From Hexactinellida sp. DTS-2022 (taxonomy: Eukaryota; Porifera; Hexactinellida), in the NCBI GenBank assembly GCA_028753945.1, contig JAPNXP010000008.1, forward strand, positions 1,054,001 through 1,118,000: a DNA stretch of 64,000 nt, in the 5' to 3' direction. Of the stretch, positions 10,787 through 61,720 are shown one piece after another (position 1 is the stretch's first letter; each line of letters begins with the position of its first letter). The notes under the pieces were generated by a model, which saw only the letters and a list, made by a program, of their open reading frames with translations, did not search any database and was not told the origin of the DNA. Both the position numbers and the translations under genes were made by a program.

Positions 10787-11913
10787 CACAGTGGGCAAAA
10801 ACAGGTACATCAGCGGTCATAGGTATTTAGGTGCAAGATAGAGGTATAAAAGGTATTAGTTACCTATGGGTTATCACCTATAACAAATTGATTGGGACCA
10901 AACAAAATTTGGTATGGCTTCTATTTTTTAAGTTGTGATGACTTAGCAAAAATGAGATAAATCTAATTCCGAAAATATTTTGATAATTATCATCGATCTA
11001 GTTGGACTATTCATACTAGTAGTATATGTCGATATGTAGAATACAAATGAGCATCTTACATGTTATTTTCCGCTTTATAACTGATTAAAATCATGTCCTA
11101 TGTGAGAAACAACAAATTAATAATTACAACAGAATTCAGAAAATATTAATTATTCTGTTTTGGGATTTGAAATTAAGATACTTTCTGTTCGGATACTTCA
11201 CTGGTAATATCGATGCGTGTTTCTAGAACAATAAATGCACCAATACTAATTACATTATTCATTTTACATTGATTTAACGAATAAAGTTCAATAAACACAT
11301 TAGATATTACATATTTTACATTTTATACTTAACCACAAGTATTTGAATATTTAATAAACAACTCAATTTTTTGAAATTTTAGTCCGATGGACAGTTTAAT
11401 AATGTATGTAACATTTTTGGGTCAAATGATGTCAATTAGTGACTGGTTACATCTTAAAGAGAATTTTCTGTAGTTTAAGATAGCATAGGTGTAATAATTG
11501 ACCATATCTTACCATATAAGGTCGGGCACAAAATATACAAAAAGGATCATCGAAAACGAAATAAAATAAATGATACTGAATTCGGAAACCATAAGAGATG
11601 TACTAAGTATAGACACATATCTGGAAACTAGAAGAAAAACTGATACTAGTATGCTTCAAATGCTCTAGAAAGCTTATTTTATGTTATAAATTTAGCACTT
11701 GAAACTTGATACTATTTGAAAACTCGAGTTTTATCTTGGAAACCATAGTTTATGATCGTAATTCAAATTATAATATCTTGACTTCCAGATGGAATTTGAT
11801 AAAATAAATTATATTTCTATGGTCCTTGACTATCCTAGCAACACATATTTAAGAAATTGAGCATAAACACAGACCTCAAAATTTGAGCTATGACCGCTGA
11901 TTTGCCCACTGTG
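10787..11913. mobile_element. Nonautonomous element with CACAGTG ends and 5-bp TSD
   Basis: Left end CACAGTGGGCAAA at 10787 and right end mirrored at 11913, directly flanked by a perfect 5-bp repeat CTAAG (10782-10786 and 11914-11918). A second shared block, ATCAGCGGTCATAG, lies 15 bases inside the left heptamer but only 5 bases inside the right one. CACAGTG is the heptamer of V(D)J recombination signals, and 5-bp duplications are characteristic of Transib and RAG-like transposases. The 1.1-kb interior shows no coding domain, so it would need a transposase in trans. Confidence 0.7.
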
Positions 11914-25721: not shown

Positions 25722-26489
25722 TTCTAGAGCGGAATAATGTAATTAATTACATGGATAAATCAAAAATGTATTCACAAATCAATATCAGCATGTCCGCTAA
25801 GACGATGCATTCTTTAGCCCATTCGTGGGTAATAACGAGCGCTTTTCTTTTTTGAGACGAGTTGTCTATTGGTTAGAAGCCTGGAATACACTCCCTGGAC
25901 CCTGGAAAGGACTTTTAAAAGCTTTAGAAATGCTTATGTTGCGTTACTAACCATCTAATTAGGTAGTGGCAAATGGGACCAGCACGGTGCAAGGCTTCTT
26001 TGAAATGGTTGTGTAACTCACAGAATACTATAGCAATCAATTAACATAGTCGAGAGTCAGAATGAACTTGTACATTATAACTGCATTCAAACATTTGATT
26101 TAAAATGCTCAATATTCACTTCACCTCTTATACCGTGCCCTCCCCAAATTTTCCATAATGAATATTAGGATAGATTGCACAGTGGCTTAATTTGGCATTT
26201 AGTAAGGAATAGGTATCCGGGAGAATTTTTACCGTGTACGTATAATGTATTATTTTCCTATAGGTTAGTGAACAATAGATATTGATTGAGATAATTCAAC
26301 CTCCTCTAAGTCTTGCGGTATTGGAATTATGACGTATTCATAATTTCCACAAATTTAGAAAGAATGAATAAATTTCCAAATTTTTGTATCTTTTAGCATA
26401 AAATTTATTTAACAATTAGTGAATGTCTATACTATCTATAGATGACTCAATTGTGTTGTTTGAGTTGTATTTGCTACAACACTTGGCAA

Positions 26490-27700
26490 ACCTTCTAGTG
26501 TGATCCTATTCGACGCATCTCTTACACCTCAATTTGAGCGAAATCCTAATAAAACTGGATCACCTTCACAAGCTAGCCTAGCAAAGATGTCAATAATGTT
26601 ATCTTCGAAGGATGTCTTTCTTGCTACATGTTCTCTGTATCCTCTGATACTTCTGCAGAGAAACATTTAAAACCATACCCAGAATTAACTTCCCTTAACA
26701 ATTCTTCGGAGTGTGCCAATAATTTGTGCAATGTGGAGTGAGGTTTGCCCATGTAAATGATTCAAGGATAAAAAAATAGGTACCTTTGCCAAGTTTTCCA
26801 AGTTCATTTGTATTGATCTTTCTACCACTGTTGAAGATTCTCAGAATTGCAGATATTGTGTATGAATTTTTGAGAGTGCTTCTTTGTGCTGTAGCTCAAC
26901 TAATGAAGATACACACTCAATGAACTAGGACTCGATAGAAAAAGCTCTTTGTGCAAAGCTACCAGTAGACGTCGTTTCATCTGAAGGATCCGGTAGGTCT
27001 ATTATTAATCCGATCCTTTCCTGTACGACGTTGCGCACAAAATGCATCGATTGGTGGATAGTTGGGGATGTAGGCTCCCATTTAATTTACCACTGTTCAA
27101 ATGGTATAGTAGTAAATTAAACCCCTGAAAATACATGTATAATAGTGTAGCGGAGAAGCCGGTGTGATATTGATGGTTGAAATACGTTCGTGAGTTAAAT
27201 TGAATCGATCATTGGATGGAAGAGAGAAAAATGATTCGATATCTTCCAGTTCTCCAAACATTTCTATCGCATCAGAAATATGCCTGTTAATGGGGAATCC
27301 TTGCAGTATTAATTGTGGATCCATAAATTCTTTGTGAGTTGCTATGCATAGCTGACAGCTTGCTCCCCCTTCCCCTGAAAGTATTGCAGCCATTCCCCCA
27401 TCGAACGTTGATCTAGTAAAATCTACAGATACATGACCCATTCCAGCTATGTTAAATCCTTCATTCTTCAATTAGACAGTGTCAGGGTTTATCACATCAG
27501 TCATAAATAGTCTGATATTCGACTCATTTTCTTTAGCAGAGCACAAAAAGATTGGCCGTTGGCAAAATGGAGAGTTAGGGGTAGTATTTTCCAGAGTCCG
27601 TTTCCACTTGAAGACTTGAATGGATTTGAAGCAAAAATATCAATGACTTGGTAGAAGTATTTGTATTTTGTTGGTTGTAGATTGTATGACTTCTTGATCC
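26490..27700 (-). pseudogene. RAG1/Transib-like transposase, catalytic core and C-terminal part
   Basis: Reading on the minus strand across several frames: GSRSHTIYNQQNTN directly at the hAT junction (the region of RAG1's first catalytic Asp), then TTPNSPFCQRPIFLCSAKEN (compare RAG1 KPNSELCCKPLCLMLADES). Next come a C..C zinc-binding pair in GGASCQLCIATHKE (RAG1 ICTLCDATR) and ITPASPLHYYTCIF at the second catalytic-Asp region. Then follow STLHKLLAHSEELLREVN and GYGFKCFSAE (RAG1 HKTLAHVPEII ... WASEG, with the catalytic Glu), IRGYREHVARKTSFEDN, and a natural end GDPVLLGFRSN. The second catalytic Asp seems replaced by Tyr. At least five breaks exist. The RAG1 comparison is from my memory of the family. 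Confidence 0.75.
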
Positions 27701-27969
27701 ATCTAAACCAGCCAACGGGGGCTCTACCGCCCCCCAGGGGCGTTTCCTTGAATTAGGGGGGCGCTGAAAAGGAAGGGGCGCTGAGGGGGGCTCTGAGACC
27801 ATAGGGAGGCGGTAAGGATGCTTAATAGGAATAAGTCATTGTTACCACACACAATGTAGAACTACATTATCATCCAAAACATAACAAATTGCCAACAATC
27901 AAATGCTTAGTTTTCACCAATTATAATTCTATCAATATTATTAGATGAAATTTCACTTGTTCTGAATCG

Positions 27970-28255
27970 ACAGCAGTTGGCTTCTTACCAATTTGGTAAG
28001 ACACCAACTGCTGCTTTATAAAAGTCTTATATAAAGTGATTATGCATAATGTCATTCTAAATCTAAAAAATTGAATTAATCGTGATATAATTTGAATTGC
28101 ATTCCCCAGACATGGCTGAAAATCGTAAGAAAATATTTCGTCATTACTCCGAAAAATATCTGAAATTTGGATTAAATGTTAGAACTTCAATAATCTTTGA
28201 GATAATGAGATTATTAGCACTTAATTCTTATATGGTAATAATCTCATTATCTCAA
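27970..28255. repeat. Two perfect short palindromes in the hAT left region
   Basis: At about 27970-28012 nested arms AGCAGTTGG and TTACCAA face their complements. At 28198-28255 an 18-bp arm GAGATAATGAGATTATTA faces its complement across a short AT-rich loop. Each could form a hairpin. They may be subterminal transposase-binding or foldback structures; function unknown. Confidence 0.6.
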
Positions 28256-28689
28256 AAAATATTGAAGTAAAGCCTTGAAAATGTATTATTAATGAATAGG
28301 AAGTTACCAGTTGAGCATAGATCAGTACTATACTAGCATAGTTTACATAAAATAGATAGTTTTTGAGTTATGGCTCATTTTAAGAAATGTGCATTTCCCT
28401 TGGCAACCGAGGAATGTGTCAACATTCCATTTATAATTTCGATATATTTCATTCAACTAGTTATGGACATCCTCATGTTCCAATTTTGAACATTTATACC
28501 GCGTTTAACTATGTTAAAAGCAGGCTATAAAAACACGATAATTCCCACGAAAAATAGCGATTACGTAATCAAATGGTGATATATCACAATTCTGAAGTGT
28601 GTTATGTATGCCTTGATATAATGTTCCTAACTTCCTATATAATTATAATGCATTTCTCAGGTCTGTCATTACTAGCTATCGAGAGAAAG

Positions 28690-30699
28690 ATATGTCAGGT
28701 AAAAATCAATGGCCTTTAAGTAATCCATGGTTCGGAGTAGTAGTAAGGCCTTATATAACGAAGGTCACGGTTTGACCTACTAATCAACAGTTATCCCTTT
28801 GCTTAATCTGCAATCAAGTATTCTCCAATGAAGCTATGAAACATTCAAGGATGTGTGACCACTAAACCAAGAAACATCCTGATAACAAATACAAGGAGTT
28901 GAATTTTTTCCAAGATCTACGCAAGCAGTTTGCAAATCGTAACTCCATAGATAGAATGTTTAATAAAGTTGTTACTTATAACGATGATGGCCTTGTTGCG
29001 TCTTACAATATTTCTCTTCTAATTGCCAAATGTGGAAAGCCCCATATACAGGGGCGGTCGCAGGATCTGGCCAGCCCGGGGCAAAGAGCAGCTTTTAGTA
29101 TAAATCCGGGGCATGCTCCATGTAATTATACTACCAATTGGGCTGGAATCGGGGGAAAAATATTTTAACCCGGGGTATTTGCCCCGGATTCCCCCCCCTG
29201 GGACCGCCACTGCCCATACCACAGGTGAAAAGCTTATTCTTCCAGCCATAAGCGAGGCCATTTCTACTGTCATGCATCAAGATCCATCTATTCAGGTCAA
29301 ATCAATTCCCTTAAGTAATAACTCAGTTTCAAGGAGGATCAGGGAAATGGCTTTAGATGCTGAAGAACAGCTGTGCGAACTTCTACAGACAACAGAATTC
29401 GCTTTGCAACATGACGAATCAACCCTAAACGACAATGAAGCATTACTTATGGCCTATGTTCATTATATTCACGAAAGGAGCACCCAAAGAAGAATGTTAT
29501 TTGCCAAGCCATTGAAAACAGATAGCAAGGGTGAATCGATATTTGGCGTTGTAATGCAATTTTTAGAAGAGAAGAGCATACCGTTAAGAAAATATCGTCG
29601 CATGTGTAACCGATGGAGCACTTTCAATGATTGGAAGAAATCGTGGTTTCATAGCTCATTTGAAACGAGCTGTGCCAAATGTATTTAGTATCCATTGTGT
29701 CATACATCGCCAGCATTTGGTCGCCAAGCACCTAACCGCTGACCTTCATCAGTCTTTGCAAATTGTAATTACTACAACAAATACCATCAAAAAATGCACT
29801 GAATGATCGCATGTTTCAACAACTTTGTCATAACAATGATGAAATTTACAAACTCCTCCTTCTTCATACTGAAGTTAGGTGGCTATCTAAAAGTAATTGT
29901 CTGAAACGGTTCTATGAACCTTTTGATTATATTGTTGAATTCCTTGAAGAATAGCATTCCACTATGGTAGAAGAAGTTAAAAGAGTAATGATTGATGTCG
30001 CTTACTTAGCTAACATATTTGAGAAACTAAATACTATGAATTTGCAGCTCCAGGGTAATAATACTAATTTAATTCAGGAAAAGGGTATTGTTCTATCATT
30101 TCTCAGCAAATTAATCATGTTCCAACTTCCGACAGAATATTGCTCGTCGTGAATTTGGCCACTTCCCATGCATGAGCCAACTGGATGTAATTGATAACAT
30201 TACTATCACAGATGACAAACTTCAAATTTACTGTTTGTATGTTGAATCCCTTCGAGATGATATGTTGATTCGATTCAAAGATTTGACGGGACTAGTTATT
30301 CCCAATTGGGGTATTAATCCATTCTGGACCAATATCGCAACTGTGGACATATATTTGCAGGAAGAATTCATTGATTTACAGAACGATATCGAATGTAGTG
30401 CCGTAATTCCCCAAATTGGATATTATGCATTTTGGATGAGAAAGGAAGTATCTGAGCGGTATCCAGTACTATCCACGCATATATCAAGCAATAAAGTTGA
30501 TGTTTCCGCTTTACCATCATCTTATCTAGTCGAGAAGGGATTCAGCGCAGTAATTACTCTCCTCACAAAACAGCGAAATCGGCTGGAAATATCCACAAAA
30601 GGCGATTTCCGACTCTTACTGCCCCAGTTAGTACCAGATGTCATTAAACTGGCAAAAAGTCACCAAAGCCAAGGATTACATGTTTCTACATATACTTAG
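28690..30699 (+). pseudogene. hAT transposase of the SCAND3/ZBED5-like type, frameshifted
   Basis: A BED-type finger (SLCLICNQVFSNEAMKHSRM..H) is followed by HPDNKYKELNFFQDLRKQF and ASYNISLLIAKCGKPH, then, after a nested MITE, TTGEKLILPAISEAISTVM. Then come FALQHDESTLNDNEALLMAY (first Asp region), PLKTDSKGESIF, a frameshift near 29590, and in another frame VTDGAPSMIGRNRGF (second Asp) and SIHCVIHRQHLV. Further on, LHTEVRWLSKSNCLKRF, and at 30520-30690 YLVEKGFSAVITLLTKQRNR, the C-terminal dimerisation motif. Order and spacing match SCAND3/ZBED-like hAT proteins of animals. At least three frame breaks and several stops make it nonfunctional. Confidence 0.9.
29049..29212. mobile_element. 164-bp hAT-type MITE inside the hAT transposase gene
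   Basis: Ends CAGGGGCGGTCGCAGG and, inverted, CAGTGGCGGTCCCAGG (14 of 16 identical), with flanks CCCATATA (29041-29048) and CCCATACC (29213-29220) as an 8-bp duplication with two differences. It splits the transposase between GKPH and TTGEK. G/C-rich interior with palindromic CCGGGG tracts. Confidence 0.9.
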
Positions 30700-30863
30700 A
30701 CGCCAACTGCAAGTGGATTTGGTATCATTAAATAATTACTTAAATAATTACATACTAATAATAACTATCAATTAATGCTGAGGTGTGGGGGGGGGCATTC
30801 AGAAAAATTAAACCCCCTTAGGAGGCGATTCAATGAATAAGGTTGGGAACCACTGATCTAAAC

Positions 30864-31430
30864 CATCTACTATTTGATAACTAAGCAGGAAATCCTCTAC
30901 TAATTGATGAGCTATCGTAGAAAGGATTCTAGTAAATGTATGTTCTATATATATTGGGCTTAGGATACACATGCACCAATCGGTTCTAAAACATTAGGAT
31001 ATAGCTTTATTGAAGAAAGTAAATTATACTGTTTCTCCTATCGACTAACTTCTGTTAAGCAGGAAATGAATATAACTAGATAGTAAATGTTGACGCAGCT
31101 TAGTATATTTCCTCTTGCCTATTTCCAGCATATCAAGAGGAAGAATGACTTATCAACATCAACATCTTTCTTGACTACTTTACCAAAATCCCCAGGAAAA
31201 TTGTCAGTTACAATTAACTTAGATACCTTAGCTACTTGTCTGGTATCATACTCATTAGAAACTAACTGAGCAATCTTGATTTCTGAAATGTTTTCAAGTT
31301 CAGCAAGTACTTTGATAGACTAATACATTTTATAGAAGTAAGGTTGTCAATACTCTTCCTATGATGTACTGAAGAAATTGGTGAATCAGCATCGCAAGAA
31401 AAACGCCTCTTCTTCAAATCTGGTTCGAGA
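30864..31430 (-). pseudogene. RAG1/Transib-like transposase, N-terminal part
   Basis: On the minus strand, from about 31430 downward: PDLKKRRFSCDADSPISSVH, then VLAELENISEIKIAQLVSN, KVSKLIVTDNFPGDFGKVV and KYTKLRQHLLSS. After frame breaks it reads RILSTIAHQLVEDFLLSYQI ending VDG at the hAT target site. The VDG..DGS that straddles the site is where I place the first catalytic Asp by comparison with RAG1 (CDGMGD). The upstream pieces are coherent protein but I cannot match them to a named domain. The upstream stretch to the 32267 end is AT-rich and noncoding. Confidence 0.55.
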
Positions 31431-31439
31431 AAAACAGCA

Positions 31440-32250
31440 GAGTTCCAGAATTCTCCACCCAGTGAGTGAATAGATTTCCTAGATTTCCTGATTGTATTCC
31501 GAACCGTGGTTAGGATTGTGTATATACTATGAGTTCAGCCATAGATGAGGACATAAGTACGTAATTGGTTATTATAATTATTGAAATATTATTTATTATT
31601 TATATTATCTTACATTTAAGTATATAGTGTATATAATAAATTTGTAGATTGTACAACATGCCGGCCATTTGCATATTCCGAAAGGTATATTGTTAAACAA
31701 CAACAAATAACAATGATTGGAATTTCCTTAGCAACATAAATTGACAATGGAATTCAATAACTTTTAAAAGTTGAGCACTGTTTCGGGAGCTAAGATTTCC
31801 ATGATTAATTCTTACAACATTAATCTATAAAAATTTATCGTCGTTGTCCGATTTTTCCGCTTAGCGGAGATTTCAAATTTTAATAATTTTGAACAATTTG
31901 GGAGATAATAGTTTATATCCCGTATTAAAATTAAAATGCATCAATGTAACAATAAATCAGTATATAAATATATATTTAGCATACACATTTTGTATATATT
32001 TGAATATACAAAATAACAACGATTCCATATACATTGTAATTCAGAGTGAAATAAAATATGATGTATTTTTGGAATTATCAAAACCACAAATGGAACTATC
32101 TATTAGATATAATTCAAAAGAATATTTATAGACGTAGTTTGTATTCAAATCAATTGAAATTTCATATGAAAGTTAGTATATTATCAAACTTGAATTTAAT
32201 ACCATTTAGATGAATTTTGATAACCACAAATATTTTCCTAATTCCAGGTG
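31440..32250. other. AT-rich 5' part of the RAG1-like element, no coding seen
   Basis: No kelch-like repeats (RAG2 hallmark: GG, Y, W spacing) in any frame. A short 80-codon plus-strand frame is rich in I, N and Y and has no domain. Confidence 0.4.
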
Positions 32251-32267
32251 TTAATTAAGCCACTGTG

Positions 32268-32556
32268 GATTGAGGGTTTAAAGCACTAAAGAAGGTAAAT
32301 TCGTTATAGATTAACAGTCATTATGAGTCATAGCATGTAGTATAGTCCACATCGGTTTTTTTGAAACTTCGTTTGCATGAAAAAACGAAAAAAAAAACAA
32401 TAGTAAAAATAGTGTTGCTCATTCCGTAACGATGTACTTTAATCTTAGTATTTCTATCAAGTCAGTAAAGTTAACATAAAGTATAGAGTAAGTAGATGAT
32501 CATCAGCAGTCAATGGTTTTTGAGAAGAAATAAATTATCACAGACGTTTCTGTTTC
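32268..32556. other. AT-rich spacer
   Basis: Noncoding sequence between the RAG1-like element's right target duplication and the next MITE. An A-run lies at 32379-32398. No feature is seen. Confidence 0.4.
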
Positions 32557-32909: not shown

Positions 32910-33923
32910 CAAGTGGCTATCATGAGCTAAAATGGATGAAATTTGTGTGTTAAAAAAACCTTTAAGTCGACTGTAACTGAACATGAAATTTTTGGAACAA
33001 AAACAGTAGGCCAGGTAATATTAATTAATTGTTTATAATTGTTTAGTAAGACGAGTTGAAATTTATTTGCTATGAAGCATTTATTCGCAAAAAGAATCAT
33101 CCTATTAGTCCAGCCGCTTACAACCAAAAAAAGGCATAATCAATGCATCTTAATATAGAATTTTCAGACTTTATAGGTTTGTTCGTTAATGCAAATAGTG
33201 TATTTTTTGGATATAGTGCCATCTCCAAATTCCAATGTGTCGGCCACAATTGACCACTTAAGGGACACATCTTGAAGGTGTTAGAACTCATCTAACTTCC
33301 TCAAATCAAGTCTAATCCAATTTTTATGCCGATATTCGTAATCAACACTAAATTTGGCGTCATTTAAGTGGTCACCTGAGACATATTTTCCTTGACGACG
33401 CTGGAATGTTGTAGGAATTTAACAACATTCCATTCTCAAATTTTATTCTAACCCTAATACCCCATCTAGTGACCCCTTGTTCGACTCCACTCAGCTTCCT
33501 GAAGCTAGTTAGACACATGCGGACCCTCTCAAAAGTCATTCGGAGCAATTGTACTGTTCTGACATATTTGTTCCGGCTGCAAAATGGTTCCGACCGGTAC
33601 CAATTTGTAATAAATTGTTCATTTAACAAATTAGTTCCGGGCTAAGTCATTTCTATGGGTTCGTCTATTCCATTTTAAATTCGTTCCGGCTTAATTTATA
33701 CCAGTAATCACACTTAGACGGGTTCCTTATGCAACACTTAAGTAACACTTCAAACCAAGTTTACAAAATAGAAGGCAAATACAATATATTTTTATGTAAA
33801 TACGGGTTAGAATCCCGGGACCGGATATATTTCTGGGATTTGAATCCCGGGAATTCTTTCTAAATCCCAGGCTTCAATACTTCATTTGTTAATAGTTTTT
33901 CTGTTATACGGTATATACGTAAT

Positions 33924-34035
33924 ACCCCTTCGTTGCCCCGGTATGTGAATTTCAAACTGAAACTAAATTCAATTTCAAATGAAATCAAATGGGATTTTTC
34001 TATTTATACATTTTACCCCAGGCAACGAAGGGTTT
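33924..34035. mobile_element. Small foldback MITE, about 110 bp
   Basis: Inverted ends 'cccttcgttgcccc' and 'caggcaacgaaggg' around an A/T-rich middle. Nested in the centre of the long-TIR element. Confidence 0.55.
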
Positions 34036-34166
34036 AATTGACCTAACAACAGTTAGAATATGGAATAAGTATTCAAAATCTCAATTGTAAGATCACTCAA
34101 CCGCTACGCGCTCTCGTTTATTCATTAAATATGGCTCATTATTAGTTGTTTCAACTTAACAACAAA

Positions 34167-34285
34167 CAGTGGCTGCGAGGGGGGGGCATGACCCCTTCTT
34201 TTGAAGCTGCCCACCTCTAGAATAACAATGTTGTACAGTGTGACCCCCCCTGGCCCCCTACCTGAAAATCCTGGCGCCGCCTCTG
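34167..34285. mobile_element. 119-bp hAT-type MITE
   Basis: Perfect 8-bp duplication ACAACAAA (34159-34166, 34286-34293). Ends CAGTGGCTGCG and, inverted, CAGAGGCGGCG. C/G-rich interior without coding. Confidence 0.85.
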
Positions 34286-34571
34286 ACAACAAACATTCTC
34301 TTATTTGCCAGAAAACAAGTTCTATTCAGCAAATGTATTAACCAGTATATTTGTCGAAGGCTAGTCTTTAGGTGAAGTATAAAACTTGACAACTTTTTTC
34401 CTATTTGCCACAAAGTGTCAAAGACAACAATAAATATCATTATAGAAATATTCCGATTCTAAATTGGAAATCATCATCCTTGTTTACCTATTAAACCCGT
34501 TGGAAGCTGGCCTCTATGTGCATTTCGAATTTATCAACTTTTTGCTTATTTTGTAACAGCAACAATAAATA

Positions 34572-34727
34572 CAGGTGAACTCCGTTATAACGAATTCGGG
34601 TATAAAGAAATACCCGCTTATTATCGGAGCACTAAATGCATTAATTATTTTCCGCTTATAACGAATATCCGGATATAACGAAGGAATTTACAGGTCACGA
34701 GCACTTCGTTATAACGAGAGTTTACTG
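34572..34727. mobile_element. 156-bp Tc1/mariner-type MITE
   Basis: TA on both sides. Ends CAGGTGAACTCCGTTATAAC and, inverted, CAGTAAACTCTCGTTATAAC. Interior repeats 'ttataacgaa'. A longer relative is at 41857-42077. Confidence 0.85.
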
Positions 34728-35767
34728 TATTCATAAGAAAAATTTGTAAATGCGAAATTCGTTTTCATACTTACTGTTTAAGAACAAAGCTAGTATAATA
34801 AAGACCACTATGTTTAACAATAATCCAGTAAATATCATACACAGTGCCGGCAGAATCGGTCAGGCCAATAGCCTAACCACTCTTACGTCACTAGTTAGGC
34901 CGGTAATGTCATGGCCTGACCACTATAACTGCTTCCACCGGACATGATATATACCTTGTATTAATAATCAAATATTGGTTAACATCTAATTCAAAATCCT
35001 GAGACTATAAGCTCTATTTCTAAGATTAATTCAATTAGTACGTAGAATATTACACAAATTTACTACTTCCCAGAGGCCGAGGGTACATGGTTTTTAATTA
35101 TAATGTACCTAAGCAAGGGTGATGATTACGTAAATGTTACTTAAGTGTTGCATAAGGAACCCGTCTTAGTGTGATTACTGGTATAAATTAAGCCGGAACG
35201 AATTTGAAATGGAATAGACGAACCCATAGAAATGATTGACACTCTAAATTCAACCCGGAAATAATTTGTTAAATGGACAATTGATGACAAATTGGTACCG
35301 GCCGGAACCATTTTGCAGCCGGAATAAATATGTCAGAACAGTACAATTGCTCCAAATGACTTTGAGAGGGTCCGCATGTGTCTAACTAGCTTCAGGAAGC
35401 TGAGTGGAGTCGAACAAGGGGTCACTCGATAGGGTTAGAATAAAATTTGAGAATGGAATGTTGTTAAATTCCTACAACATTCCTGCGTTGTCAAGGAAAA
35501 TATGTCTCAGGTGACCACTTAAATGACGCCAAATTTAGTGTTAATTACGAATATCGGCATAAAAATTGGATTAGACTTGATTTGAGGAAGTTAGATGAGT
35601 TCTAACACCTTCAATATGTGTCCCTTAAGTGGTCAATTGCGGCCGACACATTGGAATTTGGAGTTGGCACTATATCCAAAAATACACTATTTGCATTAAC
35701 GAACAAACCTATAAAGTCTGAAAATTTTATATAAAAATGCATGATTAATGTTGTAAGCGGCTGGACT

Positions 35768-49744: not shown

Positions 49745-50480
49745 AAATTAGCACAGACGCACAGCTCGAATTTGCATATTATTTCTACAGATTTACAAAC
49801 ACAAGGCTAATTGTGTCACTTGTACCACAAGTAGCACGTGGCAGGATCACACGCCACTTCAAGGATATTTGCAGAAAATGGAATAAAAAATTTCGAAATT
49901 AAAATTAAATCAAGAAATTGGAAGACATCTAATAGCTAAATAGCCGTTAATACATAACAAGAATCATATAGTGTCTTCATTAATTCTCTGCAATAAACTG
50001 GTAAGTAAATTAGTCAATTAAAACTCCCAGTTTCCAGCATACAATAAAGTAAATATACAATCACAAAAAATCAATTTAAAAAAAACGTGTCATTTGCTAT
50101 GAACTGCCGGTATTCGTCACTGTTACACATCATATAGGCAGTCAATATATTGTCAAAAAATCACTTTAGCAATGCTTCTTCTAATGACGATATCATCAGG
50201 GGCTGAATTGACCCTGATACAGACATATGCTCACCCATAGCCTACTCTATATAAGGCCTAACAGTAACCTTGAAATTATTGACTAGGGATGCACTAATAG
50301 ATGGTAATATTTAACCAACCACAATATATTAACCCCTATTTCTATTTACAAGGAACCACATTTTTTTTGTTACAACTACCCCACTAAATAGTAAGTTTAA
50401 AATTTCTTTGATTATTAGCCTCTCTTTTTATTTATTTTGTCATTTTCTTGTCCACTTACTGTTCCTATTCACTTCTAACT
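49745..50480. other. Spacer with an R2 fragment
   Basis: 49795-50000 resembles R2 ('accacaagtagcacgtggca', 'cgccacttcaaggatatt'). The rest up to the THAP gene is AT-rich; the terminal repeat expected for the P-like element was not identified. Confidence 0.4.
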
Positions 50481-50497
50481 ATTAGATTCACTTACAT

Positions 50498-53354
50498 TAT
50501 GCCCAGCAGTTGCTCAGCCCGCGGATGCAGAAGTAACTACAGCCCAGATGAGAGAGTTCGTATATTCAGGATGCCTGAACATCCACCAGAACTCAGACAA
50601 GCTTGGATACGGGCTCTTCACCGAGAGGATATTGATGACCTGAAGGTAGTCAACGTATGCGTGAAGCACTTTCGAGAAGAAGATGTCGAAGTTTCTCACA
50701 AGGTTCCAAATGGAGACGGAACTTTCACTGAAATACCTCGTGCAAAGCCCAAGTTGAGAGACGGCGCAGTTCCCTGCTTACTTCCCGGTTGTCCATCCTA
50801 CTACTCTTCAACCACAACAACCAAACGGACTCGCTTGTCGTATGACGCAAAAGAAGAAGAATTGATGAATCAGACACTACAGCTTAGCTTACTATCTGAG
50901 AGTGAGGAGAAACATAAGTACGTCATCAGAAATTTACAGGATCTAAAAGCTAAGTTAATCTTGATTGCATTACCTGATAATTGGTTAGATGGCATCCTGA
51001 TAATCATAATACTAGGTTCATTCAACCCAATAAGGTTGATAGGACTGTTTCTGTCAATTTATATCTGGAAGTAAATAATTTTTTATCTGTATCCGCCTGG
51101 TTCCATGGACAAATTATTCCCCTTTCGGTAAATTCAATTAATTATATTCGACAAATTGAATCTATACTGCATGAAATCTCCTTAAAATCTGTCTCTGATT
51201 CTAGTTGTAACTCACATTCAGACAATATTCCTCTTGCCAAAAAACATATAAATAATGTTATTGATGATTTAGCGCGTATCGACGGACCTACATACAATTC
51301 TTCAGATTTTGCTAAGCTTCAATTTATCCTCTGTCAATTAGATAATACATTTATTCCTAAAAACAGGCGAAGATACAATATAATAACACAAATTATGTCC
51401 ATTAAGACTCATCTCATTTCTCCAGCTTGTTATATCTATCTTCAGGGTTTAGAATGTATTACTCTACCACATGTCCATACATTAGATAAGTTGTATTCTT
51501 CCTTCGGTCTTGAAAATGATTTTTGCACTTATCTCACCCAGGCTACATCTTGCTTTAGTTCCGAGGAAAAAAATGTAATCATTCAAATGGATGAAATCCA
51601 TGTTAAATCTGATATTGCTTATAAAGGCGGGAAAATATTTGCACCAAATTTGAACCCTGAGGATCCGACGAAAACTGTATTCGCGATTATGGTGTCTAGT
51701 TTGCATAGGAAATGGTCTTGTATTACCCGTTTGTTACCATGTGCAACTATCTCAGCTAAAAAAATCTTTCCCACTATCAAATCTTGTATAATCGATATTG
51801 AGCATATTGGATTAAAGGTCCAAATGATTTCTACCGATAACTACCCATTGAATGTAAACTTGTTTAAATTGTTTTCTCTTAGTGGAAAGCTGGAAACTAG
51901 AGTACCCCACCCTTTTGATGAAAATAGACCTCTCTTCCTTACATTTGATTTTGTCCATATATTGAAAAGTATACGCAATAATTGGTTAAATCAGAAATTT
52001 TTTGGTAAACATTTCGTTTTCCAAATTTAGAACATATTGACATTGATAAATGCAGCTACCCCCTCAGTGTCCATACTGCTTCCTTTCAAGATGTACGCCT
52101 TCTCTACAATTCTGAACGATACAGTTTAGCAAAACTAGCCTCACTTGACTGTAAAAGCTGGTTTTCCATCAAGTATAGAAAGGTAAATGTCAAATTGGTT
52201 TTGAAGGTTGTTAGCGAACTTACACTATCTGCTCTTGAAATCCAAAATGAAAGTCGTTGTCCGGAGTATCGTAATAATACATCTAGTTTCGTAAGTATCC
52301 TTCTTACTCTTTGGAAAATATTCAATATCAATACGCCGTTCAAAGGGACCCGTTTAAATGATAGCCTCTCAAGAACGTTGATCTTAAACGATGAACGATT
52401 TTTATTTTTGACACGTATAGTATTTTGGCTAGATGCTGGGCAGGATTTACCTGACAAAACGGGTAAATTGAGTAAGCAAACGTATACTAGTTTTAGACAC
52501 GCCTGTACTGCCTTACCACTTATAACTAACCATCTAACTGAAAACTGTGGCTTTTCTTATGTATTATCATCCTTTTTACAAACTGACCCGTTGGAACACC
52601 ATTTTGGACTCTACCGTATGATGTCGGGTTCGAATTACCATATTTCTTACCTTCAGATTCTTGAAACCGAGCGTCGTCTTAAACTTTCTAGTATATTAAA
52701 CATGTTTGCAGACCAACAAGACGTTTTCCAAACGATTCAGACATTTGTAAAGTCTTTTTCTACCCACTCTGATACATCTAGTGATGATGGAATAGCTGTG
52801 TGGCCTTTTCTTGATGAAATTGGCGATCTATCATCTATTGAATGCTCTCAACAAATCCTTCAGTCGTTAGCTTTTATCGCAGGCTATACGGTCCATAAGT
52901 TCTTAAAAAGATCTCCGGAATGCCATGTGTGCACTGATACTTTAACTTATGATAAAGAATTTGTTTTTGATGTTGAGTCACATACTGAGTTTAAGCTCTT
53001 ACAATTAACAGATCGGGGCGGACTTAAGTATCCGTCCGAGCCTGTTCTTACTTCAGTTATAACTTTATGGAAGATAATGATTGCAATAGAAAATAATAAT
53101 CAGCTGTTGACTTTGCTTGTAGACGGTCCCTCTAGAAGGTATTAGTAGAACTCACCTTGATATACATGGAAAATGATGATGATATTGCTATCTGGAAATC
53201 AAATTGTATTAATTGCGATGTGTACAGTTGGAGTATTTTGAGCAAGTTAATCTTTACTGCTGCTAATTGTTTTCTTGCCAATAAAATTAAAAACTACAAC
53301 TCCTCTGTGCTTCAAATAGGTATCGATAAGCGTAAATTGAAAAAATTCTCATGA
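50498..53354 (+). pseudogene. P-element-like transposase with THAP zinc finger, frameshifted
   Basis: The likely start is the ATG at 50498 (MPSSCSARGCRS). The THAP finger has CSARGC, the conserved Pro and Trp (PPELRQAWIRAL), CVKHF as the second C..H pair, and AVPCLLPG. After a frame change at 50960-51060 (a 62-bp GT..AG intron at about 50954-51015 would also explain it) comes the P-type core. This includes IIQMDEIHVKSDIAYKGGKI, MISTDNYPLNVNLF and FLTFDFVHILKSIRNNWLN. A one-base shift near 52016 leads into a frame with FRHACTALPLIT and LQTDPLEHHFGLYRMMSGSN, the C-terminal part seen in THAP9. A further shift near 53130 precedes the last 65 codons. Total about 900 residues, the usual THAP9/P size. 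Confidence 0.85.
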
Positions 53355-57439: not shown

Positions 57440-57598
57440 CTACTTCATGGCTCCGCCAGACAATGACATATATTTGGATAGTGTTCCTTGACCGCAAGTT
57501 TTACTCTTATTACTTTTAATCAGGATGTGTGTGGAACACCCACATCGATTATAAACAACTGGCCTATATATAGGCTTCACTAGTAGGTACTCCAGCTT
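57440..57598. repeat. DIRS left inverted terminal repeat
   Basis: Starts 'ctacttcatggctccgcc', ends 'actccagctt'. Inverted to 62131-62280 with a few substitutions ('cctatatatagg' versus 'cctatgtatagg'). Confidence 0.95.
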
Positions 57599-57627
57599 CT
57601 AGCGCAAATTACTTACTTACTTACCTT

Positions 57628-58203
57628 ATGGACGATCCTTACGATCCAGACTCACCAATACAATCACTCTCAGATTATGAGAGCCACGCGATTATCTCTG
57701 ATGAGGACGAAATGTTCCTCCCATTTCAGAGACAGATAATTACAAACCAGGCAGCCCGATCTGCCCCACAATGGTTTCCGCCGGGTAGATCAACGGATGA
57801 TCCTATAATACCCAATACTAAGGACTTGGTAATTCAAACTGCCCCTTCAAAGTCCAAGGTGCAACAAAATGCACCAGATACTGCTGGGCCGACAAGCTCA
57901 AAGGAGCACACAAGTGTTGCTGCTACTGAGCAACAGAGTGAGGCGCTCAATACCCTCAATACGCTCCTTCAGCAAACCATATCCCAGCTGCAAGGATACT
58001 TGCCAGCTCCTACGCCTGCCAGCCAGGAACTCCCGGCTGCAACCCAGGCTATGGCCATCCAGTCCCAAACGAGCACAACGGAGCATGCTGAACCAACCTC
58101 CGCGTCGACACCTAACGAGACAAATCCTTGTTTTTTGACCCTTCTGGATTGGTCGAAAGGAAATATTTTGCAGGGGCCCCAAACAGTATATGCTCGTACC
58201 TAA
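57628..58203 (+). CDS. DIRS gag-like ORF1, N-terminal part
   Basis: Starts MDDPYDPDSPIQSLSDYE just downstream of the left ITR. It is acidic and then rich in S, T, P, Q and A, with no Cys-His knuckle, as is usual for DIRS ORF1. The recognisable protein leaves this frame at a T6 run (58131-58136) and continues one frame back. The last 20 or so codons of this frame are therefore probably not real. DIRS ORF1 is thought to package the RNA. Confidence 0.75.
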   Translation: MDDPYDPDSPIQSLSDYESHAIISDEDEMFLPFQRQIITNQAARSAPQWFPPGRSTDDPIIPNTKDLVIQTAPSKSKVQQNAPDTAGPTSSKEHTSVAATEQQSEALNTLNTLLQQTISQLQGYLPAPTPASQELPAATQAMAIQSQTSTTEHAEPTSASTPNETNPCFLTLLDWSKGNILQGPQTVYART

Positions 58204-58880
58204 ACAAATACTTTGTGGACGGTCTTGACACAGAGCAAAAACTCGAGATGGCTAAACGCTATAAGAGACCTGATATCCCCTCCATGAGAGCACAAAAGTT
58301 GGACACCCTTTTCGAAGGGACAAACTTTAGCTTATTGAGGGTGAGAGACGACAATCTCAAAGACATTCAGAAATGCATGCTTTATGCAGTAGGACCTCTT
58401 ACGGAGTTACTGCGGAAACTCACATCTAACGAAGAGGTGCCAAAGGACAAACTAATTGAGAACATATCGGCCTCCCTTGTTCTAACTGGGGCTGCAGTTC
58501 ATTTCACGGTACGCACACGCAGGAAACAGGCCTTAAGAGCTATAAATCCGTCACTGCTCCCCAACTTAGATAACCTCTCCGGTGAGCCGGACCCTAACTT
58601 GCTATTCGGAACAGCAAAGCTTAAGCAATTACGTGACCTGAGTGCCGAACACTCCCAACTTGGTAAATTGTCTACAACAGTACCAGACCCAAAAAGACGG
58701 AAACTACAAACTAGTTTTCGCAAGGACCCCGAACCCAACCAGTTTTTTCGAAGGGGTCCCACTGGAGGAGCGGGCTCGAGTGGGACAAACAACCCTTTCC
58801 GTTCAAACAGAAGGAACACTTACAGAGGGAACTACAAACACCCCGAGGCAAGTCAACCTCTCACAACTACTGACTGGTCT
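58134..58880 (+). CDS. DIRS gag-like ORF1, C-terminal part in the -1 frame
   Basis: From the T run the frame reads FFDPSGLVERKYFAGAPN, then LLRVRDDNLKDIQKCMLYA (helical capsid-like region). Basic, Arg- and Gly-rich sequence follows from about 58690 (PKRRKLQ, RRGPTGGAGSS), fitting a nucleic-acid-binding tail. The frame has no stop until 60926, so the true C-terminus is uncertain. The 3' part overlaps the RT ORF. The junction with the upstream gag frame is a one-base shift at 'gttttttg'. Confidence 0.7.
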
Positions 58881-60324
58881 TCCTCCTCAGGGGGATCACT
58901 TTGCAGCCAGGCTCCCCCTTTTCATGCACAAATGGCTTCAAATACTTCCGGGACCCGAGGTCCTCTCCTTTGTAGAGGGGCTTTACTTGACTCCACCTCC
59001 ACCATTGGAAAACATCACACAGCCCCACAATTATACAACAAACAGTTTGCAGCAAGAAGAGATGAGAAAAGAAATAGCCCGCCTACTAACTATCGGCGCT
59101 ATAGAGAAAACTACACATCCGTACTTTCTCAGCCCCATTTTTCTCAGACTCAAGAGCTCGGGACAGTGGAGGCTAATTCTCAATCTTCGAGAGTTGAATC
59201 AACATTTGACTCCTCCACATTTCAAGATGGAAGGGCTCCATTGCCTTCAGTACACAATGACCGAGAATTGCTACATGGGGAAGATCGATCTGAAAGATGC
59301 CTATCTTACAGTGGCTATACGAGCAGCCTCACGGAAGTACCTCCAATTCCACTGGGAGGCACAAACTTACCAATACCGTGCCATGCCATTTGGGCTGAAT
59401 ATAGCACCTTACGTGTTTACCAGGCTGCTCAAGAGACCTCTTTCAATTCTCCGTTCACACGGAATAAAAATGATCGTCTACCTCGACGACATGCTTCTGA
59501 CGGCCACGACTCAATTCCTCCTGTTACAGCACTTAGCGACCACGCAGAACTTGTTACAGGCCTTGGGATTCAGAGTCAATCAGGAGAAATCCGTCACCAT
59601 ACCACAACAAATCCTGCAATTCCTGGGAATCGAGTTAGATTCCATTCATATGGTCATTCGGGTTCCCCGGAAAACGATGACACGAATCAAAACTCAATGT
59701 TGGCATTTGAGTATCAAAGAGCACTGTTCTCTACGCGAACTATCAGCACTACTGGGTCTACTGATTTTCGCCAAAGTGGCCATCCCTATGGCTCCCCTTT
59801 TCTATCGACATCTTCAATTCGACCAGATCGAAGCTCTAGCAATCGAGAACAACTACCACCAAATGCTGTCTCTCAGTCAGGCAGCTATCCTAGACTTGCA
59901 ATGGTGGATAGAAGAAAGTCACCTGTGGAACTCAAAACCCATCCTGAGGCCCGAAATAGACATCATGATTCAGACAGACTCCTCACTGACAGGCTGGGGT
60001 GCAGCCTGTCAGGAGGACAAGGCCTCAGGCAGCTGGTCTCAGGAAGAGAAACAACATCATATCAATTTCCTAGAGCTGAAAGCAGCATTCTTCGGAATCA
60101 AACTTTATGCGAAACCAGGAACCCACATTTTGATCCAAACAGACAACATAACTGCACTGAGGTTCCTCAACAAATACGGAGGGACCCACTCTCTGAAACT
60201 CTGCAATCTCGCGATAGAGATACTAACCTACACAATGCAGAAACAAATATTGGTCACTGCGGAATATATTCCAGGCAAAGAGAATACCACAGCCGACAGT
60301 GGCCCGACACCCTCTCTCGCCTGA
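58642..60324 (+). CDS. DIRS reverse transcriptase-RNase H
   Basis: RT motifs by residue: KIDLKDAY with the first catalytic Asp (216), RAMPFGLNIAP (246-256), IVYLDDMLLT with the YxDD box (280-283) and FLGIEL (327-332). RNase H follows: MIQTDSSLTGWGA (Asp 446), LELKAA (Glu 478), IQTDN (Asp 501) and YIPGKENTTAD (Asp 552). All are characteristic of DIRS/Ty3-type enzymes. It makes and matures the cDNA. The frame stops at 60324, but the conserved continuation DTLSRLKD lies one frame back from about 60306, so one base seems lost near 60300. It overlaps the gag frame upstream; the start is not determined. Confidence 0.92.
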   Translation: MPNTPNLVNCLQQYQTQKDGNYKLVFARTPNPTSFFEGVPLEERARVGQTTLSVQTEGTLTEGTTNTPRQVNLSQLLTGLPPQGDHFAARLPLFMHKWLQILPGPEVLSFVEGLYLTPPPPLENITQPHNYTTNSLQQEEMRKEIARLLTIGAIEKTTHPYFLSPIFLRLKSSGQWRLILNLRELNQHLTPPHFKMEGLHCLQYTMTENCYMGKIDLKDAYLTVAIRAASRKYLQFHWEAQTYQYRAMPFGLNIAPYVFTRLLKRPLSILRSHGIKMIVYLDDMLLTATTQFLLLQHLATTQNLLQALGFRVNQEKSVTIPQQILQFLGIELDSIHMVIRVPRKTMTRIKTQCWHLSIKEHCSLRELSALLGLLIFAKVAIPMAPLFYRHLQFDQIEALAIENNYHQMLSLSQAAILDLQWWIEESHLWNSKPILRPEIDIMIQTDSSLTGWGAACQEDKASGSWSQEEKQHHINFLELKAAFFGIKLYAKPGTHILIQTDNITALRFLNKYGGTHSLKLCNLAIEILTYTMQKQILVTAEYIPGKENTTADSGPTPSLA

Positions 60325-61720
60325 AGGACCGGGACGAAAGCGATTGGCGCCTACATCACCCGATTTTCAACAAAATTGTGATACATTTCAATGTAGTCCC
60401 AGCCATAGACCTATTTGCCTCTCGCCTGAACACTCAGCTAGACAAATTTGTCAGCTGGAGACCAGATCCAGAGGCATGGGCAGTGAATGCCTTCACCCTG
60501 AAATGGAAATATCTGGGCGTACTCTACCTCTTCCCACCGATGATCTTAATCGGACGCACACTCTCCAAAATTTCCGAGGAGAAGATAGAGGTAGCGATCA
60601 TAGTAGTCCCATTTTGGACGAGCAGACCCTGGTGGCCTCTCCTCTTGCAATTGCTTATACAACCACCGACTCTCCTGCCTCAGATCCTGCCACTACTCAC
60701 GAACAGGAACGGGGAGAGCCACCCTCAAACATTGAGCAAGCGAATGCAAATGCTAGCCTGCTTGATTTCAGGGAACTCCTTCAAAACAGAGGGATTTCAG
60801 CTAGATCTACAGAAATTATCCTCCGATCGTGGAGCAAGTCAACACTCAAAACATATGGTTCATGTTGGAGAATATGGGTACGCTGGTGCACTGAGAGGCA
60901 CAAAGATCCCTTGGACCCTACTTTAGAAGAGGTAGTCACCTTCCTAACTGACATATTCGATTCAGGAAAATCTGCTAGTTGGCTAGCTACCATTCGGTCA
61001 TCATTGACAACTATTTTCGAAACCCTGGATATTGCTAAGGTCATACCAAGAGACCCTTTGTTCTCTCGACTAATTAAGGGCATAGGAAACATGCAACCGA
61101 AGAAACCACGTTACTCCCACACATGGGACATAAACCCTCTATTGGAATACCTTAAAACTGATAAGCCTGGACTAAAATTCCTTTCAGGAAAAGTTGCAAC
61201 ATTGGCTGCAATAGCCACAGCATCGAGATGCTCGGAAATCGCTGCGTTTGATACCAGGTACATTACCATACGGGAGAACGAAATATGTTGTCAGATTGGT
61301 CAGGCTAAAACTTGGAAGAAAAAGTTCATGAAACCTATAATAATCTCACGCTTTCAATCTAGTAGTCTGGTTTGCCCCATGACTAACTTAAATCGCTACC
61401 TAGATTACACTAAAGATTTAAGACCTGAGACTGTTCACCCAGTATTCATCAGTTTAACAAAACCTCACAAGAGTGTAACCCCATCGACCATCGGTCGTTG
61501 GATCAAAAACACTCTAGCAGCAGCTGGAGTGGACACCGATATATTCAAAGCCCACTCGACTAGATCCGCTTCTACATCTAAGGCAGCTAACGCAGGACTG
61601 CCAGTACATCAAATTCTTACAGTAGCGGACTGGTCCAATGCACAATCTTTCGAAAACTACTACCGGAGAGATACTCACTCAGAGACTCATCTCAACGATG
61701 CAGCAAATGCTTTCACATAG
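60299..61720 (+). CDS. DIRS tyrosine recombinase
   Basis: Catalytic residues of the tyrosine recombinase family are visible by residue in this frame: Arg 310 (ATASRCSEIAAF), His 419 and Arg 422 (FKAHSTRSAST), Trp 445 and nucleophile Tyr 454 or 455 (ADWSNAQSFENYYRR). An N-terminal SAM-like core-binding domain spans about 175-265 (STLKTYGSCWRIWVRWC). The first 130-150 codons overlap the RT extension and are probably untranslated shadow, so the real start may be near residue 145-160. The protein inserts the circular DIRS DNA at the target. The frame is intact. Confidence 0.92.
   Translation: MARHPLSPEGPGRKRLAPTSPDFQQNCDTFQCSPSHRPICLSPEHSARQICQLETRSRGMGSECLHPEMEISGRTLPLPTDDLNRTHTLQNFRGEDRGSDHSSPILDEQTLVASPLAIAYTTTDSPASDPATTHEQERGEPPSNIEQANANASLLDFRELLQNRGISARSTEIILRSWSKSTLKTYGSCWRIWVRWCTERHKDPLDPTLEEVVTFLTDIFDSGKSASWLATIRSSLTTIFETLDIAKVIPRDPLFSRLIKGIGNMQPKKPRYSHTWDINPLLEYLKTDKPGLKFLSGKVATLAAIATASRCSEIAAFDTRYITIRENEICCQIGQAKTWKKKFMKPIIISRFQSSSLVCPMTNLNRYLDYTKDLRPETVHPVFISLTKPHKSVTPSTIGRWIKNTLAAAGVDTDIFKAHSTRSASTSKAANAGLPVHQILTVADWSNAQSFENYYRRDTHSETHLNDAANAFT
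60303..60926 (+). CDS. DIRS RT/RNase H C-terminal extension (-1 frame)
   Basis: After the shift near 60300 the frame reads WPDTLSRLKDRDESDWRLH, then AIDLFASRLNTQLDKFVSW and PDPEAWAVNAFTLKW, and ends its conserved part with VVPFWTSRPWWPLLLQLL. This block (IDLFA, N.Q...F.S, DP.A...AF, PW.P.L) follows RNase H in DIRS polyproteins. The first 625 bases overlap the start of the recombinase frame, as in other DIRS elements. The last 100 residues before 60926 have no conserved look and are probably shadow sequence. Confidence 0.8.
   Translation, partial: PDTLSRLKDRDESDWRLHHPIFNKIVIHFNVVPAIDLFASRLNTQLDKFVSWRPDPEAWAVNAFTLKWKYLGVLYLFPPMILIGRTLSKISEEKIEVAIIVVPFWTSRPWWPLLLQLLIQPPTLLPQILPLLTNRNGESHPQTLSKRMQMLACLISGNSFKTEGFQLDLQKLSSDRGASQHSKHMVHVGEYGYAGALRGTKIPWTLL

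Follow-up and report, generated by a model that had tools for sequence, protein, structure and literature searches.

Introduction

The signals used in V(D)J recombination carry the heptamer CACAGTG and spacers of 12 or 23, and the origin of this 12/23 rule is an unsettled question. In the current study we describe a transposon family that bears on it, starting from a RAG1-like element at positions 26178–32267 of a 64,000-nucleotide stretch of contig JAPNXP010000008.1 from a probable glass sponge; this whole stretch is called the window. We are highly confident that the element once moved by cut-and-paste as a DNA transposon of the RAG1/Transib superfamily and is now a dead copy; the family to which it belongs is large and recently active.

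The 12/23 rule has been reported to be recognised solely when RAG1 is accompanied by RAG2, and ProtoRAG is named in the text of the same review as the only asymmetric-ended invertebrate RAG-like element, to which a figure legend adds oyster ends (PMC8355894). Invertebrate RAG-like complexes have furthermore been proposed to be rather insensitive to asymmetry (PMC7204232). A few Transibs, i.e. Drosophila Transib5, Anopheles Transib2 and N1–N3, possess 12/23-like ends (as cited in PMC8355894); like the family described here they are RAG2-free, with heptamer-like tips and a spacer difference of approximately one turn, so that asymmetric ends without RAG2 are not in themselves a novelty (PMC8355894). 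Compared by description, their second element is nonamer-like, whereas that of the present family is not, varies between subfamilies and is shifted by 9–10 bp. What is added here is a RAG2-free family with open frames whose ends combine the exact V(D)J heptamer with a one-turn asymmetry; our literature search found no description of the host group, of so high a copy number, of an exact heptamer shared by many subfamilies or of a second motif that co-varies.

AanRAGL of Aureococcus shares with the family two conserved end elements, unlike ends and 5-bp duplications, but it carries RAG2L and its ends begin CACACCC (PMC9435367). In its ends a 13-bp element is separated from a 10-bp element by 4 or 13 bp (PMC9435367), lengths which place the second motif at approximately 18 and 27, near the 19 and 28 of the motif core in L043 and L049. 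ProtoRAG, whose transposase BbRAG1L (PDB 6b40) agrees with the family in fold and in catalytic and zinc residues, also has asymmetric ends, but RAG2L is present, the heptamer is CACTATG and the spacers of 27 and 31 bp differ by 4 bp (PMC8289069). Vertebrate RAG1 with its 12/23 signals shares the predicted fold including the nonamer-binding domain, the heptamer CACAGTG and a spacer difference of about one turn; in contrast, it is domesticated and works with RAG2, its nonamer ACAAAAACC differs from the second motif found here, and its shift is 11 as opposed to 9–10.

Results

Structure of the window copy

An earlier note on this DNA had reported inverted CACAGTG ends, a perfect 5-bp GATTG duplication and ordered minus-strand pieces of the RAG1 catalytic core, all of which were recovered as follows, the duplications and terminal repeats being read directly from the sequence (relatives elsewhere in the genome carry L numbers):

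26173..26177: target site duplication GATTG, left
26178..32267, coding on the minus strand: whole RAG1-like element, with identical inverted ends and flanking GATTG
26178..26192, plus strand: terminal inverted repeat CACAGTGGCTTAATT at the gene-3' (long-spacer) end, with the heptamer CACAGTG at 26178–26184
26206..26213, plus strand: second end motif GGAATAGG, 29–36 from the tip (long spacing), a motif known from relatives
26245..26254, plus strand: conserved subterminal motif ATGTATTATT at the gene-3' end, recognised from genome-wide matches of a combined pattern
26404..27708, minus strand: C-terminal half of the decayed transposase, in several frames (tblastn with the L002 and L014 frames)
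30856..31525, minus strand: N-terminal half of the decayed transposase, to ..IVDGLD (tblastn)
32237..32245, minus strand: second end motif GGAATTAGG at the gene-5' end, its spacing disturbed by four extra bases compared to L033
32253..32267, minus strand: terminal inverted repeat CACAGTGGCTTAATT at the gene-5' end (the short-spacer end in relatives)
32268..32272: target site duplication GATTG, right

The two CACAGTGGCTTAATT ends both read inward and are identical at 15 of 15 positions. The 15-bp shared end described previously holds for the window copy, whereas its sisters L033 and L038 share 13 bp and 12 bp, respectively; the window copy carries an extra ATTA at its gene-5' end relative to L033, which accounts for both the longer repeat and the disturbed spacing. 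The transposase pieces retain their order on the minus strand (31525–30856, then 27708–26404), and the C-terminal half displays the second Asp motif STFDGGM, the Cys pair ASCQLC, the His pair LHKLLAH and a zinc-knuckle remnant. Given an insertion, stops and frame changes, this copy is dead.

Copies of the family in the genome

An inverted repeat flanked by a 5-bp direct repeat does not by itself settle the matter, since the window holds ten such pairs of at least 12 bp, five of them (a class counted in the window alone) of 15 bp. Twenty base shuffles, in which 12-bp pairs were counted, yielded none or one each, a single pair appearing in four. Such single pairs lend the only colour to the idea that a chance inverted repeat lies near a chance 5-bp repeat and an unrelated gene fragment, an idea that is vanishingly improbable and is refuted by genome copies which have the ends, the duplication length and the gene in common.

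Searches covered 112.4 Mb in 18 contigs. The 15-mer end, with at most one mismatch, gave 22 matches compared to four for the reversed control, while a sister 20-mer with up to three mismatches gave 196 compared to five. The pattern CACAGTGGN{38,58}ATGTATTATT was found 97 times, at least two of these matches appearing by eye to be unrelated or rearranged, and never in the control. A 124-aa piece of the C-terminal half produced at least 150 scored matches, the window's own included (a lower bound, as 347 candidates were seen), whereas autonomous Transibs are described as typically present once or a few times in a genome (PMC4411706). Nearest among the scored matches were L002–L004, with 83–86% protein identity to the window piece, and at the DNA level both halves of the window copy match L033 with 84–89% identity.

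Twenty-four copies, selected mostly for long frames, were fetched. In 13 (L033, L035, L038, L039, L043 and L045–L052) both ends and a perfect 5-bp duplication were present, and all tips in these copies begin CACAGTGG; the end searches required CAC[AT][AG]TG or CACAGTG tips. Ten of the 24 were without a matched pair, an end being missing or the flanks differing. A scan of all loci and the window requiring exactly a 5-bp duplication returned 16 distinct insertions. The remaining one of the 24, at L041:2384-5438, is bordered on either side by the 6-bp GCATGT in place of a 5-bp duplication. At L031:3002-3013 one end has two CACAGTG tips separated by 11 bp, which may reflect an insertion that is nested or misaligned.

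The earlier note had called for an intact copy. Among 12 two-ended elements examined, nine contain one open frame of 711–749 codons (L035, L038, L039, L045, L046, L047, L049, L051 and L052), while the frame is broken in L033, L048 and L050; open-frame members measure 3.0–3.7 kb, with a single transposase frame of approximately 710–750 codons. L047 and L048 are 99.86% identical across 3.66 kb and sit at different targets, indicating that the family moved recently. The earlier note had seen no RAG2-like kelch sequence in the window copy. A scan of the 12 elements for stop-to-stop frames of at least 100 codons, read without regard to introns, found no second gene and, broken transposase frames aside, no additional frame reaching 125 codons.

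Spacing of the second end motif

In complete elements both ends share a second motif, which is placed further in at one end than at the other. Taking one pair of ends per subfamily, with subfamilies judged by eye, the best 11-mer match between the ends fell at a shift of 9 or 10 in 14 of 16 pairs. When 20 pairs, several of them belonging to a shared subfamily, were scanned for 12-mers, 16 showed a shift of 9 or 10, compared to 5% in shuffles, these best 12-mers starting at 11–17 in one end and at 20–27 in the other.

The motif mostly terminates in TAG or TAGG, examples being TCTTCGAATAGGCA in L047, AGGTCGATTAG in L051, CACAGGAAGTAGG in L041 and ATCAGCGGTCATAG in the element at 10787–11913 of the window, and in both L043 and L049 its GGAA-TAGG core begins at positions 19 and 28. 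Pairing of ends within elements scored 153, whereas 2000 random pairings averaged 120.9 and never exceeded 138; the motif therefore varies between subfamilies yet is matched within one. The V(D)J nonamer at 12/23 spacing was not found in the family ends, whose second motif differs from it. Thirteen of the 16 pairs enclose a transposase gene, and the short-spaced end lies on the gene-5' side in 11 of them (exceptions L039 and L045).

The same type of ends was seen in a second element of the window:

10787..11913: 1127-bp element with CACAGTGGGCAAA tips on both sides and the duplication CTAAG

Its second motif, beginning ATCAGCGGTCAT, lies at position 23 of one end and 13 of the other, and its size suggests a non-autonomous derivative. 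Both this element and another small one, L007:1916-2897, have one short and one long end.

Transposase and placement of the family

The family proteins are DDE RNase H transposases homologous to the RAG1 core, in which the DDE and zinc residues are conserved, and the predicted fold is that of RAG1/Transib, including, from model residue 104, the region aligned with the RAG1 nonamer-binding domain. Together with the ends and the 5-bp duplications, this bears out the RAG1-like or Transib lineage suggested previously. HzTransib (PDB 6pqn, 6pqx), which has the same catalytic residues, is the nearest solved protein in both sequence and fold, with 156.7 bits as compared to 70.9 bits for BbRAG1L. Profile positions 408–449 (42 positions) are filled in the family and in BbRAG1L, whereas HzTransib, which is without most of this segment, has seven residues there and its ends are described as symmetric (PMC8289069). 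A C-terminal CCHC (Cx2Cx4Hx4-6C, by eye) is present in 13 of 23 aligned relatives and absent or altered in ten, one of these truncated; this tail resembles the Cx2Cx3GHx4C motif of BbRAG1L (PMC7204232). The distant relatives P0132 and P0137 carry a C-terminal CCHC with exactly the latter spacing. Among 75 protein matches 16 are named, all from the glass sponge Oopsacas minuta; the probable host is deduced from these names alone, and horizontal transfer is conceivable.

An unrooted tree of 24 sequences and 354 columns was built from 17 family members, P0116, P0132, P0137, P0101, HzTransib, BbRAG1L and mouse RAG1. A 98% split separates the 17 members from the remaining seven (the place of P0056 itself is weak), so that the family is nested neither with HzTransib and P0101 (100%) nor with BbRAG1L and mouse RAG1 (100%), which is all that the tree shows. 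P0101 is a distant relative, close to HzTransib in this tree.

Discussion

The family likely belongs to Transib Subgroup I, a placement made from described traits. The traits of this subgroup are a zinc-binding segment (alpha11–alpha12), a CTT1-type CCHC tail and asymmetric ends (Tao et al. 2022, PMC9435367). The family has a RAG2-free RAG1-like transposase, retains the zinc-binding segment that HzTransib lacks (the equivalence of profile positions 408–449 to alpha11–alpha12 being deduced from PMC9435367), shows the CCHC in many members and has asymmetric ends. Set against the subgroup description, what differs is its probable glass sponge host, the exact V(D)J heptamer of its ends and its abundance, with at least 150 matches in one genome.

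Two other placements have to be weighed against Subgroup I. It is improbable that the family is simply a Subgroup II Transib like HzTransib: HzTransib is indeed the nearest solved protein, ten of the 23 relatives are without an intact CCHC, and asymmetric ends alone do not rule this placement out, as Subgroup II has asymmetric as well as symmetric ends (PMC9435367), but the near-empty 42-position segment of HzTransib, its symmetric ends and its grouping with P0101 apart from the 17 family members speak against it. It is very improbable that the family arose from RAG1L-RAG2L transposons of the ProtoRAG type through loss of RAG2L, as its higher score to HzTransib, its position outside BbRAG1L and mouse RAG1 in the small unrooted tree, and the lack of a remnant second frame in the 12 elements outweigh the asymmetric two-part ends, the CCHC of many members and the segment held in common with RAG1L. 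A genome search for RAG2 gave no match, but its controls were likewise silent and it is uninformative.

With regard to the ends, the known RAG and Transib mechanisms suggest that the transposase acts as a dimer, which would nick the CAC of CACAGTG, leave the flanking DNA in hairpin form and join the element to its target through cuts staggered by 5 bp. The second motif may be bound by the domain aligned with the RAG1 nonamer-binding domain, and an end of short spacing would preferentially synapse with one of long spacing in the absence of RAG2. Taken alone, this short-long pairing rule is at best evenly balanced. It is read from anatomy, and several points weigh against it: the 12-mer scan missed four of 20 pairs (L033, L039, L052 and the window copy); L039 and L045 gave their best 11-mer match at another shift, L045 with 10/11 at shift 0 as compared to 9/11 at shift 9; four of the 16 pairs (L034, L040, L041 and L042) are without a perfect 5-bp duplication; the short end of the three gene-less pairs (L007, L034 and window 10787) was assigned by the analyst's choice; the common descent of the subfamilies makes the 16 pairs non-independent; and given the required CAC-type tips and the selection mostly for long frames, other tips could escape. 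The difference between the ends could instead be unrelated to pairing, reflecting a promoter or polyadenylation signal at one end and a shift of 9–10 bp inherited by descent. The side of the short end in gene-bearing pairs (the two exceptions match best elsewhere), the additional conserved ATGTATTATT at the gene-3' end and the common ancestry agree with such an origin, yet we consider it rather unlikely, since a second motif that differs between subfamilies and agrees within an element is expected of two sites for one protein, and the two small elements retain one short and one long end.

Returning to the pairing of short with long ends, we tentatively propose, while judging it more doubtful than secure, that the one-turn rule of V(D)J recombination predates RAG2, a lone RAG1-like transposase reading CACAGTG and a co-evolving second motif and pairing short with long ends. 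If true, the 12/23 rule came down from a transposon without RAG2, and neither RAG2 nor vertebrates created it. The one-turn asymmetry kept across changing second motifs, together with near-identical open-frame copies, renders the origin of the rule directly testable, with subfamilies of different second motifs serving as natural swaps.

Nested insertions and other elements of the window

The two halves of the window transposase gene are separated by the following features:

27701..27708: hAT-like target duplication ATCTAAAC, left (read from the letters)
27709..30855, plus strand: nested hAT-like transposon with an 8-bp duplication, interrupting the reading of the RAG1-like gene
29049..29212: 164-bp element inside the hAT-like element, with ends CAGGGGCGGTC / CAGTGGCGGTC
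30856..30863: hAT-like target duplication ATCTAAAC, right (read likewise)

The nested insertion claimed by the earlier note is real and interrupts the coding sequence of the first catalytic Asp motif (DGLDG); its hAT label is based on duplication length and ends, and Pfam scans of two of its frames returned no hAT family. The copy would have inserted at GATTG and then received the hAT-like element, which in turn was entered by the small element; the copy also decayed, perhaps beginning before the second insertion. The 164-bp element is flanked by an imperfect 8-bp pair, CCCATATA / CCCATACC.

Elsewhere in the window, long frames at 57574–61720 resemble, by eye, a DIRS retroelement with a tyrosine recombinase, and frames at 50412–53145 resemble, likewise by eye, a THAP-type P element transposase. 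At 33718–35164 an inverted repeat ACGGGTTCCTTATGC with 5-bp flanks CTTAG delimits approximately 1.4 kb.
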